Below are positions 20,746 to 32,754 of a stretch of 32,754 nt of DNA, one piece after another (the first letter of the stretch is position 1; every line of letters begins with the position of its first letter). A model generated the notes under the pieces. It had not been told where the DNA came from. It saw only the letters and a list, made by a program, of their open reading frames with translations, and ran no database searches. Made by a program: the position numbers and the translations under genes. Origin of the DNA: an uncultured Bacteroidales bacterium (lineage in GTDB: Bacteria; Bacteroidota; Bacteroidia; Bacteroidales; FEN-979); the NCBI GenBank assembly GCA_903925275.1, contig CAIYES010000131.1, forward strand, positions 1-32,754. Direction: 5' to 3'.

Positions 20746-20818
20746 GCGGTAGTAGCTCAGATGGTAGAGCATCAGCTTCCCAAGCTGAGGGTCGTGGGTT
20801 CGATCCCCATTTACCGCT
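20746..20818 (+). tRNA. tRNA-Gly (anticodon CCC); genomic CCA follows at 20819-20821
   Basis: GCGGTAG/TTACCGC acceptor stem, TCAGC-TTCCCAA-GCTGA anticodon arm, GGGTTCGATCC T-arm. Confidence 0.93.
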
Positions 20819-20832
20819 CCAGTAAAATCAAG

Positions 20833-20941: not shown

Positions 20942-20984
20942 AAAAAAAAAGGTTCCCAAAGTGGTACTTATCCACCTGGGAACC
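20942..20984 (-). terminator. Rho-independent terminator (minus strand)
   Basis: Minus strand: GGTTCCCA-g-GTGG-ataagta-CCAC-tt-TGGGAACC then TTTTTTTTT; directly downstream of the decayed DUF932 end. Confidence 0.8.
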
Positions 20985-20999
20985 CTTTCTGACACTATT

Positions 21000-21150
21000 C
21001 TATAACTTCATCAGCCTGTCAAAAACTCTCTGAGAATATTGGGCCGACAATCCTCCCAAAACAATTGATTTCATCTTCACCTCATCATTCCGGAAATTCT
21101 TTACTCTCTGGAATTAGCCAGCCACAGAATAGGATACACCAATGTTAGCC
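21000..21150 (-). pseudogene. Truncated second copy of the 3' end of the DUF932 gene (left boundary set by its stop codon)
   Basis: Minus-strand reading ...GVSYSVAG*FQRVKNFRNDEVKMKSIVLGGLSAQYSQRVFDRLMKL* aligns with GVYNSMAGYFQNVKNFSSEEVKMKSIVLGGLSAQYSQRVFDKLLKY* of the intact gene at 22092-23069; internal TAA and no upstream homologous region. Confidence 0.88.
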
Positions 21151-22091: not shown

Positions 22092-23069
22092 TCAATATTT
22101 AAGAAGTTTATCAAAAACTCGCTGGCTATACTGAGCAGACAATCCACCAAGAACAATGGATTTCATCTTCACCTCTTCAGAACTGAAGTTCTTTACGTTC
22201 TGGAAATAGCCAGCCATACTATTATACACCCCAAATCCATTCCCGCGAATACTGTCTATCTCAGAAGCCTGGTGGTAGTAATTGACCACCCCCTCCACCA
22301 TATTCGCCTTACGAGTGGATAGTTCAATGTTTCCGGTAAGTGCAAGTGTTTTCAATTCTTCCTTATTCAGGAACGCTCTGGTGATTATTGATTTCATGTC
22401 CCGGTCCGTCACCTTCTTATCATATAGCAGCCGAAAAGCTACTTCCAGTTTATCCAGGTATTCTGAATGCATGCCCATGACCAATGCTGCCTCAACAAAC
22501 CGTTCCTTTACATTCTGGGTATGCTTAATAAACACCCTGTTGGTGTTATTGTTGAAGGCAGCATTGAGCGTATTCTGGCACACAACCCTGACAGGGGTAA
22601 AGAATGCCGTAATAGCCATTGAGCCATCATGTGAGGAACAAAGAACCAGGTAATTTTCAATGGGGCCATCCCTACCAATGACAATCTGCTTTGGTAGTTT
22701 GGCGGTGATGAATAACACTCCGCCCTTTCCAAGGCAACCGGCAGTCTCGTAAATTGCCTGGCCCTGTCCAACAATCTGGTCAAAGAATGAGAATACATCA
22801 CGGTTCTGGACGATGGTATAATCTTTACCAACCATGCCCAGCACGTCGTTGTTATCTTCCCTGACCGTTGCGAAGTAATCCGGAACATCAAGCCCTCGTT
22901 CAGTAAAGAGCTTTTGTTTTTCGACTGTAAAGTCCAGTCCACCAAACTCAATGGCTTCCTGGGCCGTGAATATATGATCCAGGATTTGGCCCAACTTATG
23001 CCAAGCAGGTTCTTTGGCACTTACAAACGAATACCTTTGGGAATCGTTGTTGAAATTCAAATTATGCAT
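22092..23069 (-). CDS. DUF932 domain-containing phage/plasmid-type protein
   Basis: MHNLNFNNDSQRYSFVSAKEPAWHKLGQILDHIFTAQEAIEFGGLDFTVEKQKLF...VCSSHDGSMAITAFFTPVRVVCQNTLNAAF: DUF932 signature segments. Confidence 0.88.
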   Translation of the reverse strand: MHNLNFNNDSQRYSFVSAKEPAWHKLGQILDHIFTAQEAIEFGGLDFTVEKQKLFTERGLDVPDYFATVREDNNDVLGMVGKDYTIVQNRDVFSFFDQIVGQGQAIYETAGCLGKGGVLFITAKLPKQIVIGRDGPIENYLVLCSSHDGSMAITAFFTPVRVVCQNTLNAAFNNNTNRVFIKHTQNVKERFVEAALVMGMHSEYLDKLEVAFRLLYDKKVTDRDMKSIITRAFLNKEELKTLALTGNIELSTRKANMVEGVVNYYHQASEIDSIRGNGFGVYNSMAGYFQNVKNFSSEEVKMKSIVLGGLSAQYSQRVFDKLLKY

Positions 23070-23727
23070 GTTGATTGATTGTTAATATTTTTAAATCAAA
23101 TAGGTCATGTTTAATTAATCCGAGTTGCTTGGAATTCAATCTATTATTGGTTTGTTGAAGGCGAAGTATGTCATGTAAACGAAGAAATCTATTCAACTTT
23201 ATTGCTGATGTTCCAAGTCCCTGTGCAATTTGAGTGGTTGTAAGTTTTGAACTTGAACTTAACCCACTTTTTGCATCGTCTATTATTGGAGCCTGTTTTT
23301 CGAGCTGAGTATTTGCCTCCAGGAGTTTATTTGAGGTTTCTGAATAATTTGCTTGAAGTTGTTTGAAATCTTCAATAGCATATTTATATCCCCTGGCAAT
23401 GATTGATGCCCGATCGTTAAGAAGTTCATAGTTTTTGTTAAAAGATTTAATGAATTTTTCTTTAAATTCTGCTGCTTTTTTCCCAGTATATCCCATTACT
23501 AAGAATGAAAATCCATCTCTAGTAATAATGTACATAGGTTGTGTTTTCCCTCTTGAATCAACATAATCTCGCTCCTGAAAATTCAGGAGTCGAAATTCAT
23601 CACTACATTCAAGTTTTTTAATATCCTGAAGTACATTATCATGTCTCTTTTCAAACACTTCAGCAATTATTAACGATGTTGTATGGATTCCATGAGGTTT
23701 ATCCATTAATACAATTTCATTTTCCAT
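23062..23727 (-). CDS. Rha-family phage regulatory protein with KilAC-like C-terminal domain
   Basis: MENEIVLMDKPHGIHTTSLIIAEVFEKRHDNVLQDIKKLECSDEFRLLNFQERDYVDSRGKTQPMYIITRDGFSFLVMGYTGKKAAEFKEKFIKSFN; C-terminal helix-turn-helix-like ANT region. Start moved from 23838 to ATG 23727. Confidence 0.88.
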   Translation of the reverse strand: MENEIVLMDKPHGIHTTSLIIAEVFEKRHDNVLQDIKKLECSDEFRLLNFQERDYVDSRGKTQPMYIITRDGFSFLVMGYTGKKAAEFKEKFIKSFNKNYELLNDRASIIARGYKYAIEDFKQLQANYSETSNKLLEANTQLEKQAPIIDDAKSGLSSSSKLTTTQIAQGLGTSAIKLNRFLRLHDILRLQQTNNRLNSKQLGLIKHDLFDLKILTINQHA

Positions 23728-23862
23728 AAATTTGGACTTATGTGTGAGTACTATATCCGTAGCCCTCCTGTCAGGTGATCCCGCCATTATATAGCGGTGG
23801 ATTGTTGAAATAGAAATTATCAGCTTCAACTGCAACAAGTCCCTTAATAGGTTTAACGATTT

Positions 23863-24873
23863 TTATACTTCGATGGTCTCATTTCGCTTCTGGCAATCCA
23901 GGATCGGGCAGGTTGCACACACTTTTGGAATAGCTTGCATCGGCCAGCCTGATCTTTCCCATCCAAGGATGGTTTCAACAACCCATTTGATTGTGCGTTG
24001 AAGTTCATTCAAGCGAATACTGGCTTTGGCAGCTTTCTGAGGATCGGGATCATTGATGTCCGTGATGATCGGGATATCCTTAAACCCTGCATTATCCCTT
24101 TTATAATCAAAGACCAGGTAAACAAAAGGTCTTCCAAAGATTTGCCGGTACATCATTGCTTCGGTAAAATCAGCCATCTCCATATTCCCCCAGGGAGTGC
24201 CATGAAACAATCCGTTACTGAATGATTCAACGACATCCTTGTCCTTGGTCAGTTTCAGGTCAATGGTAGCCGAGGGAAAGGAGTATCCGGGAGTTGTAAT
24301 CGGTGAAACGAAATCCAAGGTGCCATCGAGAAAAACAGGAATTTTCCAGTTGTGGTCCGGATCAACCCAGCGGCGCTTATGGTAAACCTGAGTATGGTTC
24401 TGATCGATTGCCAGACCATAATCTTGTTTCACCTTGAAGAATAGTTCTACAGCCATGTCAATCCTGTCATGGTCTGCAAGTTTAGCCCCTGTTTTCTTAT
24501 GCCGTGGGAGGTCAATAGTCTCACTACCATCAGCAGATAACCCAAGGCATTTGCTCTCAAAATACAACCCCTTGATCATTGAATCCGAAGGTGGTGATAC
24601 AATATCCCGAAGCAGTGAGACATGGTAAACTTTGTATGGGCATACCGGGTATGGTTCTCCTTTATGGATCAGCTGCCGGATAAGTGATTTAGAAACACGG
24701 ATAGCAGTTATCTTTCCTGTTTCCGCTGAAAGGTCGATCTTTGAAGGTAGTTTATCGTTACTGATTACCTCATTGATCTTTTCCACCGGCAGACCGATGA
24801 TCTGGTTGAACAGCCCTACAAATACATTGAACGGGCTATCCCGAATAACTTCATACCTGGGCAGCATGACCAA
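23863..24873 (-). CDS. Predicted PD-(D/E)XK (RecB/Cas4-like) nuclease with candidate Fe-S cysteines
   Basis: GLYFES, DGTLDFVSP...ATIDLKLTK (D...DxK), FTEAMMYRQIF helix, N-terminal CPYKVYH and C-terminal CATCPILDC. Confidence 0.7.
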   Translation of the reverse strand: MVMLPRYEVIRDSPFNVFVGLFNQIIGLPVEKINEVISNDKLPSKIDLSAETGKITAIRVSKSLIRQLIHKGEPYPVCPYKVYHVSLLRDIVSPPSDSMIKGLYFESKCLGLSADGSETIDLPRHKKTGAKLADHDRIDMAVELFFKVKQDYGLAIDQNHTQVYHKRRWVDPDHNWKIPVFLDGTLDFVSPITTPGYSFPSATIDLKLTKDKDVVESFSNGLFHGTPWGNMEMADFTEAMMYRQIFGRPFVYLVFDYKRDNAGFKDIPIITDINDPDPQKAAKASIRLNELQRTIKWVVETILGWERSGWPMQAIPKVCATCPILDCQKRNETIEV

Positions 24874-25498
24874 TCTGTTTAAGAGGTCTTAAAAGTGCCT
24901 CTGCAGACTCAATTACCTGTTCCATCCGGGTAATTCCAAGGCCGGTGAAGGGTATGCATTCCACGGCAAGCTGCAGGGCATAATACCTCCTGGAAACGAT
25001 ATCACGCATGTGAGGATCATTCTCCAGGACATTGGACAATACCCAGTTGTTATAGATGGTGGCAAGAGTATTGACATCTTCAATGGAACGGGGAGAGATA
25101 CCAGCATTGGTATAATGCTGCCGGGCGATGGTCTGGCACATCGAAAATGCGATCCTTCTTACGACTCCGGGATCATTGTATGATTTGCCGTTTCCATTTC
25201 CATTCCCATTCCCGTTGCCATTCCCGTTCCCGTTTCCCGGAATTCCTCCAAAAGGTTCCAGTTTCTTTACCTTGGTGATATGATTGGAGCCATTGGGGGT
25301 CAGGGATAGTTCGTAGGTGACTGCGGTTCCCGGCAGTAATGGATAAACATCCTTTTCTGACCCGCAGCTTCCGCTAACCCCATCTTCAAAGATGATGGTG
25401 AACCCATAGTTTGTTTTGCCTGTGAACTTGTTCTGCCATGCCTTATGGATGCCGTTCTGCATCTGCGGCGTGACGCTTTTAATAATTGACTGTGCCAT
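24851..25498 (-). CDS. OB-fold-like putative nucleic-acid-binding protein with (Gly-Asn)8 linker
   Basis: N-terminus NKFTGKTNYGFTIIFEDGVSGSCGSEKDVYPLLPGTAVTYELSLTPNGSNHITKVKKLE, then GN repeat, then helical C-terminal domain. Confidence 0.55.
   Translation of the reverse strand: MAQSIIKSVTPQMQNGIHKAWQNKFTGKTNYGFTIIFEDGVSGSCGSEKDVYPLLPGTAVTYELSLTPNGSNHITKVKKLEPFGGIPGNGNGNGNGNGNGNGNGKSYNDPGVVRRIAFSMCQTIARQHYTNAGISPRSIEDVNTLATIYNNWVLSNVLENDPHMRDIVSRRYYALQLAVECIPFTGLGITRMEQVIESAEALLRPLKQIGHAAQV
25190..25237 (-). repeat. Hexanucleotide-period repeat encoding (Gly-Asn)8
   Basis: gtttcc atttcc attccc attccc gttgcc attccc gttccc gtttcc on the + strand: 8 units with synonymous variation. Confidence 0.9.
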
Positions 25499-25545
25499 GT
25501 TTTTTAAAAATTAGCATATGTATTAAATTTTGATTTTTGGTAGGG

Positions 25546-25854
25546 CTAAAATGGAATAGAATCTTTTCCGCTGTTTACCGGCATTGCCAAAGGAACTGTT
25601 GCTGATTGTTCCATCATGATCCCTGCGGGAAGATCCACGTTCATTTTCGTTACAGGTGAACCATTAATCGGGGTTGCTGCCTGTACCGAATCCGTTTTCG
25701 TTACTTCAGGGATGTGATTGCCACCATTGGAGCCTTGGTTGATTTCAAATTCCAGGGCAAGAATCTCTTTGGCAATTGGCAGAGAATCATGTGTAAAATG
25801 CTCGAACACCCGCTTTGCCAGTTGCAGTGCCCGTTTTTCTGTTTCGGTTATCAT
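25546..25854 (-). CDS. Small hypothetical protein ending in an SSB-like C-terminal tip (DSIPF)
   Basis: 102 aa; C-terminus ...VNSGKDSIPF*; starts with a 4-bp ATGA-type overlap with the helicase gene. Confidence 0.72.
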   Translation of the reverse strand: MITETEKRALQLAKRVFEHFTHDSLPIAKEILALEFEINQGSNGGNHIPEVTKTDSVQAATPINGSPVTKMNVDLPAGIMMEQSATVPLAMPVNSGKDSIPF

Positions 25855-27359
25855 CTTGTTTTCGTTTTTAATTTGTTAATAAACTGTTTCTCATTTGCTT
25901 GAATTGAATCAGGCAAAGGGATCTCCCAGAACTGATCATATGCCATCTCGGTAAAGAAATGTATCAGGGCAGATGAATCGTTAATCTTATTCTCCCTGTT
26001 CTTTCCTGTGTCCACGATAAACATGTGGCTGAGAATGTCATGTTCAGCACCATTGAATTCACTCATAAGGTCTTTGTAGATATTAAAGGAATTGATTAAA
26101 AGCACCTGGTTTGGTGTCCTCCGGAATGTTTCAGATCCTTTCATATCCTTTAATATAGGCCTGTAACCTGTTTGAAGATTTTCCTTGTCCTGTTGGGCAT
26201 CGTTAAAGTGATGAAGCGGAATGATCAATCCCTTCGTCTTCTGCCTGCATTTGAGCAGGTTATGCATCACATGGTTTGAGAATCCGTTGGGATCAAATTT
26301 GAAATCTCCCTGATCATCAAGAGAAAGAATGTTATCTACAACCAGTATGTTAAAACGCTCTTTCCTTTGATCACAGAATTGGACAAAGTGGGTCACTATA
26401 TCATCTGATCTGATAGCCTGGTCAATGAACTCAATGTCGAATTGTTGGAATTCACGAGTAAACCTTTTCATCACATCAATCATTGAATGATCATACTTCA
26501 TGGACTTCAAGTGCTTTGCCGAAATGAAAACCTTGGAGGCGAGGTATGACCTTAGCAAATCCTGTCTGGAATCTTCCAGGGATATCCAGCACACTGAAAT
26601 ATCAGGATACCGTTCCAAGAGCCTGTAAATAATGGTGCGAATAAACCTGCTCTTCCCGGCCGAAGCTGCTCCGGCAATCAGGATGATCTTGTCTTTACCC
26701 AATGAGATCACCTCGTCAAAGCGGGGCCACCCCAGGTTATAGACTATCATCGGCAGCGAGAGCTTTTGGGATTTATTGACTTGGATGGAATCAAACTCAA
26801 TTATCATCTCGTCGGCCAGCCGGTCTGCTGTTGTTGCCACCGTTTCAGACAAAAGTGGGTCGAGCCTTTCCAACTCAGCAATGAAATCCTCCAACAGGTC
26901 AAATACATCTGCTGAATCATTCAAAGCGATATCGGCCTTTTGAATTCCGATCCGGTTGATTTCCCTTTGAAGGAATTTCTGGTATATGATCCGGAACCAG
27001 AATTCTATATTCACTGTACTTGAAATTCTTGATGTCAGCATCGTTATTCCGTAGGCACCCCCAACCAATTCCAGAGTGCCGTTCTTTCTGCACTGTTCGG
27101 TTACGGTCAGAATATCAATCGGAAAATCATGTTCATAAAGGGTTTTGATTGCGTTTAACAATAGTTGGTGAGATTCCTTATAGAAGTATTCCGGCCGTAG
27201 TTTTAGCAGCACTGTCTTTACATGGTCTGCCAGAGATTCCAGCATGATGCTTCCAAGAATTGCCTCTTCAAAATCAATAGCACTGGGTGGACTTTTATCC
27301 TGATGGAAAACCAGATCTGTACTGGATTTTCTTATAACTCTGAAATTATTTTGTTTCAT
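25851..27359 (-). CDS. DnaB-like replicative helicase
   Basis: DnaB N-terminal region AIDFEEAILGSIMLESLADHVKTVLLKLRPEYFYKESHQLLLNAIKTLYE..., Walker A-like IAGAASAGKSRF, Walker B-like NILVVDNILSL. Confidence 0.88.
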   Translation of the reverse strand: MKQNNFRVIRKSSTDLVFHQDKSPPSAIDFEEAILGSIMLESLADHVKTVLLKLRPEYFYKESHQLLLNAIKTLYEHDFPIDILTVTEQCRKNGTLELVGGAYGITMLTSRISSTVNIEFWFRIIYQKFLQREINRIGIQKADIALNDSADVFDLLEDFIAELERLDPLLSETVATTADRLADEMIIEFDSIQVNKSQKLSLPMIVYNLGWPRFDEVISLGKDKIILIAGAASAGKSRFIRTIIYRLLERYPDISVCWISLEDSRQDLLRSYLASKVFISAKHLKSMKYDHSMIDVMKRFTREFQQFDIEFIDQAIRSDDIVTHFVQFCDQRKERFNILVVDNILSLDDQGDFKFDPNGFSNHVMHNLLKCRQKTKGLIIPLHHFNDAQQDKENLQTGYRPILKDMKGSETFRRTPNQVLLINSFNIYKDLMSEFNGAEHDILSHMFIVDTGKNRENKINDSSALIHFFTEMAYDQFWEIPLPDSIQANEKQFINKLKTKTR

Positions 27360-27792
27360 TTGGAAAATCCTTTCTGAATAGTTCGAGTTGCTTTTTGAGA
27401 TAATCTATAGTGAAGTCCCCAAAAAGATACTTGTTTCGTTCACTTTGTCCGGTACTGATGACAAATTCCCGTTCATATAGTTTATCTCCAATGAAGTCAT
27501 AAAAGCTCTTTCTCAGAGCATAAGCCTTTGTGGGAAAGTATTGCGTCCCAAGTTTCGGCCCATACATCATATTCCACTGGTCGATATGCTGCTTGAACTT
27601 CATAAACAAGAATTCTGATGTCAATGGATTATCCTCAATGGTCATGTTTTTCAGGAACCACGTGAACCTGTTATATGTCTGTTGTAAGTCTCCTTCGGCA
27701 TATATTTCAGACAGAAGTTCCTTGAATTCATCAAAAGATGGAGTTTCGGGCTCACCTCCTTCATTTTGGTCTCCCTTTGTTGTAGTTGACAT
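27346..27792 (-). CDS. Hypothetical protein overlapping the 5' end of the DnaB-like gene
   Basis: 148 aa, 14-bp overlap with the helicase gene, same strand in a dense operon. Confidence 0.65.
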   Translation of the reverse strand: MSTTTKGDQNEGGEPETPSFDEFKELLSEIYAEGDLQQTYNRFTWFLKNMTIEDNPLTSEFLFMKFKQHIDQWNMMYGPKLGTQYFPTKAYALRKSFYDFIGDKLYEREFVISTGQSERNKYLFGDFTIDYLKKQLELFRKDFPNETK

Positions 27793-27807: not shown

Positions 27808-28557
27808 TTAAATGGCCCCTTCATCGGCGAAAGAGTAAAAGTGGTCATTTGCCAAGATGATGTGATCGAGAACAGTTATTTCCAAAAGAGCTCCGGCATC
27901 AACGAGCTTCTTGGTCATCCTTTGGTCAGCCTCGCTGGGTGTTACAACATTTGAGGGATGGTTGTGGCCCATAATTAATGAGCAGGCATGATGATCAAGT
28001 GCTATCTTGAAGATCTTCTTTGGATCCACGACAGTTCCGGAAATTCCTCCTTCGCTGATCTGAACTTTCTGCAATACCTTGTTGGCCCTGTTCAGCAATA
28101 TGATCCAGAATTCCTCATAAGGTTTATCAGTCAACACCGAGCGGAAGATTTCATATGCATTCCTTGAAGTTGAGATCTTTTCTTTCAAAACAACTTCTGA
28201 GGCACTGCGTCTGCGACCAATTTCAAAGGCTGTAATCACCCGTGTGGCCTGCGCCATTGTGATATTCCCTGTCTTGACCAGGTCATTGACAGATAATTTG
28301 GCAATCTCACCAAGGTTATCAGCGCTATGGTTAAGAATTTGCCGTGCTGAATCCAGACAAGATCTTTTGCGGGAACCATCGTTACCAATTATTATAGAGA
28401 GCAGTTCTGAATCCGATAATGCCAATCTGCCTTTGAGTAGGAACTTTGTGGCTGGCTTGTCATCTTCGCACCACATCTGCATGGGAACGGTGTGTCTGTA
28501 TTCTTTCATGTTGTCACGATTATTACGGATGGGTTGTTTGAAAAGTTCAAGTTGCAT
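27808..28557 (-). CDS. radC: RadC-family JAB/MPN domain protein
   Basis: LALSDSELLSIIIGNDG...ISEGGISGTVVDPKKIFKIALDHHACSLIMGHNHPSNVVTPSEADQRMTKKLVDAGALLEITVLDHIIL. Confidence 0.93.
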   Translation of the reverse strand: MQLELFKQPIRNNRDNMKEYRHTVPMQMWCEDDKPATKFLLKGRLALSDSELLSIIIGNDGSRKRSCLDSARQILNHSADNLGEIAKLSVNDLVKTGNITMAQATRVITAFEIGRRRSASEVVLKEKISTSRNAYEIFRSVLTDKPYEEFWIILLNRANKVLQKVQISEGGISGTVVDPKKIFKIALDHHACSLIMGHNHPSNVVTPSEADQRMTKKLVDAGALLEITVLDHIILANDHFYSFADEGAI

Positions 28558-29897: not shown

Positions 29898-32754
29898 ATG
29901 AAAATAGGACTTTTATTAATAAACTTTCTCTTATTATTTCCCGAATATATAGTTGCCCAGCAACCAATGTTAACTGTTAACACCGGTCATGCAAATCTAA
30001 TAAGTTCTGTTTGCTTCAGCAATGATGGGAAATATGCTTTATCTGGTTCTTGGGATGCAACATTAAAATTATGGGATATTGCGACTGGAAAAGAAATACG
30101 ATCTTTTTTAGGGCATTCAAATTGTGTTACATCTGTACAATTTAGCCCCGATGGGAAATATGCTTTATCTGGTTCCTGGGATAAAACATTAAAATTATGG
30201 GATATTGCGACAGGCAGAGAAGTTCGTTCATTCAAGGGACATAATGAGAGTGTCAACTCAGTCTGTTTCAGCCCAGATGGGCAGTATGCTATATCTGGAT
30301 CAGGGGATCAAACAATTAATTTATGGGAGATATCTACAGGAAAAAAAATAAAATCTTTCATACGATTTTCAAAAGGCTTTGAAAGCATTAAATCTATCTG
30401 TATTAGTCAAGATGGAAAATATATTTTATCAGGATCATGGGGTGGTAAAATAAGACTGTGGGATATGACATCTGGGAATGAACTGCTTTCTCTTATTGGT
30501 CATAATCAAGAAATATGTTCAGTATGTTTTAGCCCTGATGGGAAATACGCTTTATCTGGATCAGCGGATAAAACTATCAAATTATGGGATATTACAACTG
30601 GAAAGGAAATCCGTTCTTTCATTGGCCATACTGAGAGTGTCAATTCAGTTTGTTTCAGTCCAGATGGAAAATATGCATTATCTGGGTCACATGATAAAAC
30701 TATCAAATTATGGGACATTACAACTGGAAAAGAAATCCGTTCGTTTTATGGACACTCATGTTTCGTTAATTCTGTTTGTTTCAGTCCTGATGGTAAATAT
30801 GCTTTATCCGGATCTGGTGCATGGAACGGTAATAGTAAATTTGATAATACATTAAAGCTATGGGATATTTCGACCGGAAAAGAAATCCGTTCGTATATTG
30901 GGTATACGGATAATGTTAATTCCGTTTGTTTTAGTGCTAATGGAAAGTATTTTATATCTGGGTTAGGTGATAAAACTATCAAATTATGGGATATCTCAAA
31001 TGGAAAAATAATTCGTTCGTTTATTGGACATTCGGAGGCTGTGACTTCTGCCTGCTTTAGTCCGGATGGGAAACATGTTTTATCCGGATCTTCTGATAAT
31101 ACAGTAAAATTATGGGATATTTCTACCGGGAAAGAAATCCGTTCATTTACCGGCCATAAAATTGGTGTTCATTCTGTTAGTTTCAGTCCTGATGGTAAAT
31201 ATGCCTTATCTGTGTCTGATTATCCGAATGAGATCTTGAAATTTTGGGATATCTCAACCGGGAAAGAGATTCGTTCAATTATTGGAAATTCAAAAATTTA
31301 TGGATTATTTTTTATTAGCCTTGACAGTATAGTTGCTTTAAAACTTTCTCAGGAGAATAGAATAAACCTTATAAATATTTCTACCGGGAAAGAAATCCGT
31401 TCGTTTATCGGTCATTCAAACTCAGTTGAGTCTGTTTGTTTCAGTAATGATGGTAAATATGTCTTATCCGGTTCTTTGGATGAGACAATGAAATTATGGG
31501 ATATTTCTACCGGAAAAGGAATTCATTCGTTTGGTGGACAATCGGGAGCAGTGCATTTTGTTTGTTTTAGTCCTAACGGTCAATATGCATTATCAGGGGC
31601 ACATGAGTCAACGACCCTATGGGAAATCTCAACAGGAAAAAAAATTAGTTCGTTTGTAGGACAATTGGATTACGGCACATCTGTTTCCTTTACACCAGAA
31701 GGTAAATACATTTTATCAGGTTCAAAAAATGGCAACATGAAGATTTGGAATTCAGGTACAGGTGAATTATTATTAACGATTTATCAATTAAGGAATTCTG
31801 ATGATTGGGTTGCAGTGACTCCAGATGGAAGGTTCGATGGTACTCAAAAAGGAATGAATTTATTATATTATGTAATGGGAATGGAAATAATTCCTTTGGA
31901 AAGCACATTCGAACAATTTTATACTCCTAATTTAATTGCACGAGTAATGTCAGGGGAATCGTTTTCTACGATTGAAATTAAAATTAGAGATTTGAAATCA
32001 CCGCCATCAGTAAAAATAATAACACCCATTGACAAATCAATTACCAGCAAGAATCGATTAACTGTTAATGTAAATGTAATTGATAAAGGTGGTGGTATCG
32101 ATGAAATCCGTTTATACCATAACGGAAAATTAATTGAAAACACTCAACGAGGATTTAAACCAATATCACAAACAGGTAGCGCCCAAGAACAAAGTTTTAA
32201 CATCACTTTAGTGAATGGTCAAAATAAGATTAAAGCAACATCTTTCAATAATGAGCGAACCGAGTCAATTCCTGATGAGATAACGGTTTTCTATAATGGC
32301 ACTGCTTTAAAACCCTGCTTACATCTTTTTGTTATTGGCATCAATTCATTTAAAAACCCTAAATATAATCTTAATTATGCTATCCAAGATGCACAGTCAT
32401 TGTCACAAGAAATTCAAGTCGGTTGTAAAGGTATTGTCGAAAAGGTGGTACCCTATATTTTACTGGATGAAAAAGCGACAAAGCTAAATATCCTAAGCAC
32501 CATTAGCCAGATCAAATCTACATCTAAGGAAGAAGATATCTTCGTATTCTATTATGCAGGTCATGGTGTCATGAGTGTTGATGAATCATCAACTTTTTAC
32601 ATAATCCCATGGGATGTCACCCAACTATATGGCAACAACGCAATACTCAAAGAAAAGGCTATTTCTGCAGAAGAGTTAAAGACCTTTTCAAAGGAAATCC
32701 AGGCACGAAAGCAATTATTCATAATGGATGCATGTCAATCGGGTGGAATTGTTG
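29898..32754 (+). CDS. Exported WD40-repeat protein with C-terminal caspase-like (peptidase C14) domain, partial at window end
   Basis: Open frame from ATG 29898 to the window edge (no stop seen, hence absent from the ORF track). Signal peptide MKIGLLLINFLLLFPEYIVAQQ; repeated SVCFSPDGKYALSGS-DKTIKLWDISTGKEIRSF units; caspase motifs FVFYYAGHG and FIMDACQSGG. Confidence 0.93.
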   Translation, partial: MKIGLLLINFLLLFPEYIVAQQPMLTVNTGHANLISSVCFSNDGKYALSGSWDATLKLWDIATGKEIRSFLGHSNCVTSVQFSPDGKYALSGSWDKTLKLWDIATGREVRSFKGHNESVNSVCFSPDGQYAISGSGDQTINLWEISTGKKIKSFIRFSKGFESIKSICISQDGKYILSGSWGGKIRLWDMTSGNELLSLIGHNQEICSVCFSPDGKYALSGSADKTIKLWDITTGKEIRSFIGHTESVNSVCFSPDGKYALSGSHDKTIKLWDITTGKEIRSFYGHSCFVNSVCFSPDGKYALSGSGAWNGNSKFDNTLKLWDISTGKEIRSYIGYTDNVNSVCFSANGKYFISGLGDKTIKLWDISNGKIIRSFIGHSEAVTSACFSPDGKHVLSGSSDNTVKLWDISTGKEIRSFTGHKIGVHSVSFSPDGKYALSVSDYPNEILKFWDISTGKEIRSIIGNSKIYGLFFISLDSIVALKLSQENRINLINISTGKEIRSFIGHSNSVESVCFSNDGKYVLSGSLDETMKLWDISTGKGIHSFGGQSGAVHFVCFSPNGQYALSGAHESTTLWEISTGKKISSFVGQLDYGTSVSFTPEGKYILSGSKNGNMKIWNSGTGELLLTIYQLRNSDDWVAVTPDGRFDGTQKGMNLLYYVMGMEIIPLESTFEQFYTPNLIARVMSGESFSTIEIKIRDLKSPPSVKIITPIDKSITSKNRLTVNVNVIDKGGGIDEIRLYHNGKLIENTQRGFKPISQTGSAQEQSFNITLVNGQNKIKATSFNNERTESIPDEITVFYNGTALKPCLHLFVIGINSFKNPKYNLNYAIQDAQSLSQEIQVGCKGIVEKVVPYILLDEKATKLNILSTISQIKSTSKEEDIFVFYYAGHGVMSVDESSTFYIIPWDVTQLYGNNAILKEKAISAEELKTFSKEIQARKQLFIMDACQSGGIV
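29970..31780 (+). repeat. Tandem ~126-bp repeats encoding about 14 WD40 units
   Basis: Recurring ...aaattatgggatatt(t/a)c(t/a)ac(c/t)gg(a/g)aaagaaatccgttcgttt... ; units 5 and 6 (around 30566 and 30692) nearly identical with 126-bp spacing. Confidence 0.88.

Follow-up and report, generated by a model that had tools for sequence, protein, structure and literature searches.

The window analysed here, a stretch of 32,754 nucleotides from an uncultured Bacteroidales bacterium, encodes on its minus strand a 102-aa protein (positions 25546-25854) in which a predicted helical hairpin is followed by a predicted disordered linker and by a C-terminal tip of the type carried by bacterial single-strand-binding proteins (SSBs). 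The tip is conserved among homologues, and the OB-like protein encoded beside it has none. We tentatively propose that the 102-aa protein is an adaptor, which would give an SSB-type tip in trans to the replication/recombination complex of the element and thereby recruit host SSB partners. In bacterial DNA metabolism the SSB tip serves as a central hub on which other proteins dock, and it normally forms part of the same polypeptide as the ssDNA-binding domain. A tip protein that stands alone, if true, would make recruitment separable from ssDNA binding and would provide a natural probe, encoded genetically, for the partners of the SSB tip. None of the open-access papers searched describes a stand-alone protein with an SSB tail.

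The tip gene belongs to an operon-like series of minus-strand genes that encode, in this order, a RadC-like JAB-domain protein (27808-28557), a 148-aa protein of unassigned function (27346-27792), a DnaB-like replicative helicase that is itself tip-less (25851-27359), the tip protein, the OB-like protein (24851-25498), a probable PD-(D/E)XK nuclease with four conserved cysteines (23863-24873), a Rha-type phage regulator with a KilAC-like domain (23062-23838) and a DUF932 protein (22092-23069). The ATG of the tip gene and the stop codon of the helicase gene share four bases (25851-25854), and the start of the nuclease gene overlaps the OB gene. The nuclease assignment is based on related members, which match PDDEXK_1/DUF3799 weakly; the protein of the window itself has no Pfam match.

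Translation confirmed the two frames and the ends that the original prediction had given for them: the smaller protein terminates in SGKDSIPF (DSIPF codons GAT TCT ATT CCA TTT, 25549-25563) and the larger in GHAAQV, which is not a tip. The smaller protein had also been described as unlike an OB fold; its structural model consists of a two-helix hairpin at residues 4-41 and disorder thereafter (mean pLDDT 57.5; 71-80 in the hairpin, corresponding to moderate confidence). As in the SSB C-terminal motif (SSB-Ct), the tip lies at the exact C-terminus and behind a linker that is predicted to be disordered; however, the tip and the OB-like domain reside on separate proteins rather than in one polypeptide. 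Neither of these two window proteins matched PF00436, and the tip protein had no trustworthy match to a known family in Pfam, PHROGs or NCBIfam.

Among 100 related genomes that were searched, several from the same genus encode homologues of the tip protein. Nine distinct tails were available for comparison, eight from one Bacteroidales genus (the window included) and one from an IMG/VR viral contig, and all nine keep the tip as [acidic/polar]-[hydrophobic]-P-[F/Y/L], as the original prediction required: DSIPF in the window, DDLPF, DDFPF (three times), EDFPL, EEVPY (twice) and, in the viral protein, DNSPF. The frames of eight of the nine homologues are intact; in the other (L048) the frame is broken close to its beginning, but the tail is intact. 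The linkers between hairpin and tip vary in length and sequence, and the tip codons are varied too, proline being encoded by all four of its codons and aspartate and glutamate by both of theirs. Because nine distinct homologues keep the tip while their linkers differ, the tip is not a product of chance. This possibility was ruled out by the conservation together with the rarity of P[F/Y/L] ends. The fetched loci contain 544 distinct ORFs with a length of 100 aa or more, and 26 of these have such an end; nearly all of the 26 encode tip proteins, SSBs or proteins of phage replication. This background frequency is rough only, since the sample is enriched for such loci. Retention of the tip despite diverging linkers counts in favour of the adaptor. 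Five more copies (L008, L020, L021, L041 and L045) are truncated or decayed remnants without the tail. A wider search of 396 genomes of the phylum returned nothing better than borderline matches (E 0.005-0.009), which lay within long frames, and in the collections searched the known range of the tip protein is narrow, comprising one genus and one viral contig.

Eight of the nine homologues are not independent, because they come from one bacterial genus, and this lends some weight to the view that the tip has no SSB-tip function and is either a vestige or another acidic-hydrophobic end signal. DdrB of Deinococcus provides a precedent, as its SSB-like end was reported to be unnecessary for radioresistance (PMC3834827), but there the motif sits on the DNA-binding protein itself. 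We consider a functionless tip quite improbable, given that it is kept at the exact C-terminus of a viral homologue of only 38% identity, through replaced linkers and with varied synonymous codons.

The best conserved region in the homologue comparison is the hairpin, which suggests that it has a docking role of its own. This argues against the idea that the protein is a soluble competitor, docking on nothing in the element and using its tip to occupy host SSB partners, which would be redirected or blocked during element replication. Such a competitor could well be small and separately encoded, as this protein is, and some copies closely match the host SSB tip (DDLPF); yet one free tip per molecule would face competition from SSB tetramers, which are abundant and carry several tips each, and we regard this explanation as unlikely.

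The tip of E. coli SSB is DDDIPF. Bacterial SSBs resemble the tip protein in having a flexible linker that ends with an acidic or polar residue, a hydrophobic residue, proline and phenylalanine at the exact C-terminus, and differ from it in that their tip is fused to an ssDNA-binding OB domain (PF00436) instead of being carried by a separate helical-hairpin protein. The single PF00436 match in the genome of the window lies on another contig (C283) and ends in MPEDDLPF, while the eight SSBs read from relatives end in DDLPF or NDLPF; the host tip EDDLPF and those of the relatives were counted for the adaptor. No canonical ssb was found within the element, in keeping with the original prediction. 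Phage SSB tails, including NDYPPF, mediate functional coupling to partners (PMC5928155; PMC11846896). The SSBs of HK620 (NDYPPF, partner Sak4) and of phage 80alpha (partner Sak) are comparable to the present system in that a tip-like C-terminus couples to a partner in a replication/recombination context, but their tail and OB domain are parts of one protein.

The OB-like protein (215 aa) is predicted to comprise a strand-rich domain (residues 2-79), a Gly/Asn linker (83-105) and a four-helix bundle (110-209). Its AlphaFold2 model has block pLDDT values of about 86-96 for both domains, and the linker is disordered. In line with the original prediction, the strand-rich domain is predicted to be OB-like and is modelled with high pLDDT, but the fold matches in the PDB are weak, none reaching E <= 0.001, which counts against the adaptor. 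Many of these matches are OB folds, as we take the cold-shock protein, ribosomal protein S12, Teb1 and RPA among them to be. One RecO (7ymo), likewise built of an OB domain and a helical domain, was also among them, but the match is poor (TM 0.26, rmsd 18), and RecO binds the SSB tip and carries none. Predicted viral proteins matched the fold with E down to 7e-7 and had uninformative names. Profile searches against PDB sequences gave nothing useful, no entry of Pfam, PHROGs or NCBIfam gave a trustworthy match, and no relatives were found among named phages and plasmids. A stand-alone tip protein, if true, would help with the annotation of this phage replication module, in which the OB-like protein matches none of these family collections. 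By description only, the protein can be set beside PriB, which PMC8509808 presents as an SSB-like OB protein without the SSB C-terminal domain. PriB differs in being a primosome protein, and we know of no dedicated tip protein for it.

Searching viral contigs with the nuclease retrieved modules with OB-like counterparts. These are likewise tail-less, and their homology was supported for three sets by profile comparison. The IMG/VR contig 3300001335_000566 (L066/L126) encodes, in this order, a 153-aa protein, a DnaB-like helicase, the tip protein, an ATPase, the OB-like protein and the nuclease; its helicase, tip protein and nuclease show 36%, 38% and 32% identity, respectively, and by position and appearance the protein upstream of its helicase is the counterpart of the 148-aa protein. 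Two of these findings were counted for the adaptor: the OB-like proteins are tail-less, and one viral contig combines the helicase and the tip protein with the OB-like protein and the nuclease. In eight other viral modules (L055, L057, L059, L061, L075, L076, L079 and L082) the OB-like protein is tail-less and no tip protein was seen. The neighbouring SMC/RecF-like ATPase of these modules ends in LF (STLF, GTELF, ETDLF, KPLF or EILF), mostly after acidic residues; the ATPases of L054 and L066 have no LF end, and the small proteins there end in GLPF and NSPF. The LF end might represent a further kind of tail or a motif for clamp binding; the cases are few and mutually related.

The adaptor proposal combines these computed features, i.e. 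tip conservation, the hairpin-linker-tip layout, the tail-less OB-like neighbour and viral-contig synteny, with steps that we infer. The conserved hairpin would dock on the replication/recombination complex of the element, most likely on the tail-less OB-like protein, which would bind ssDNA, and the flexible linker would present DSIPF to those host proteins whose normal docking site is the tip of the host SSB, so that partners such as DnaG, PriA or RecO might be recruited. The OB-like protein is favoured as the docking partner because two cassettes without a DnaB helicase gene at this place, L047 and L051, still have its gene next to that of the tip protein.

In the window and in L126 the order of the genes favours a different docking partner, as do helicases that have a tip-like end of their own, and both points were counted against the adaptor. 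The small protein might dock on the DnaB-like helicase and provide it with an SSB-type tip, which would recruit the primase DnaG of the host or a different SSB partner, while the OB-like protein would work separately. In both cases the tip gene comes immediately after that of the helicase (four-base overlap and 26-base gap respectively), related helicases end in DPKDPVPF (L053) and FDNQPPF (L054), and DnaG is a known SSB-tip partner (PMC5872125). Conversely, L047 and L051 keep the tip protein without an adjoining helicase gene, and L054 has both the tip-like helicase end and a small protein that ends in GDGLPF. We judge service to the helicase somewhat unlikely. The original prediction, which split binding and partner recruitment over two adjacent proteins, had left the helicase out of account as a second possible docking partner; the split fits the anatomy of the proteins and the conservation in the viral contig. 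The other option that had been offered, mimicry by which host SSB partners are redirected, agrees with these data as well.

The two helicase ends, and a different protein in L062 whose gene lies just before that of the nuclease and which ends in EDDLPF, place tips on different proteins of related modules. The tip thus seems to shift from one protein of the module to another. Extending the adaptor proposal, it is possible, if speculative, that Bacteroidota phages and elements derived from them have a split SSB, in which a tail-less OB-fold protein is paired with a separate tip-bearing hairpin protein, and that the tip has moved in evolution between the hairpin protein and the replicative helicase of the module. 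The small proteins of L053, L054 and L064 were considered as homologues of the tip protein, but hhalign gave no support (probabilities 1-6%) and they are treated only as positional look-alikes, though the one in L054 has the end noted above. In the EEVPY sub-lineage (L006/L051) the OB-like protein ends in SDEPQF, and L011 has a partial copy of an OB-like gene whose product ends in TDEPPF; the OB-like protein, too, may therefore carry a tip-like end.

Several observations concern the surroundings of the cassette. In genus relatives (L008, L020, L021, L041, L045 and L015) the cassette copies are truncated or internally deleted; some of these adjoin genes that look like FISUMP-type surface proteins, with several copies in G013. 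In the window, an open frame with WD40 repeats (29898-32753, plus strand) runs off the contig end, its last part being caspase-like by eye. A tRNA-Gly(ccc) adjoins a stretch that resembles the 3' end of the DUF932 gene (window positions 20746-20821 and 20980-21142), and the site looks as if an earlier cassette copy once sat there. Part of this tRNA recurs in the same genome as an identical 45-base copy (contig C32:2795-2839) beside a tyrosine integrase gene.
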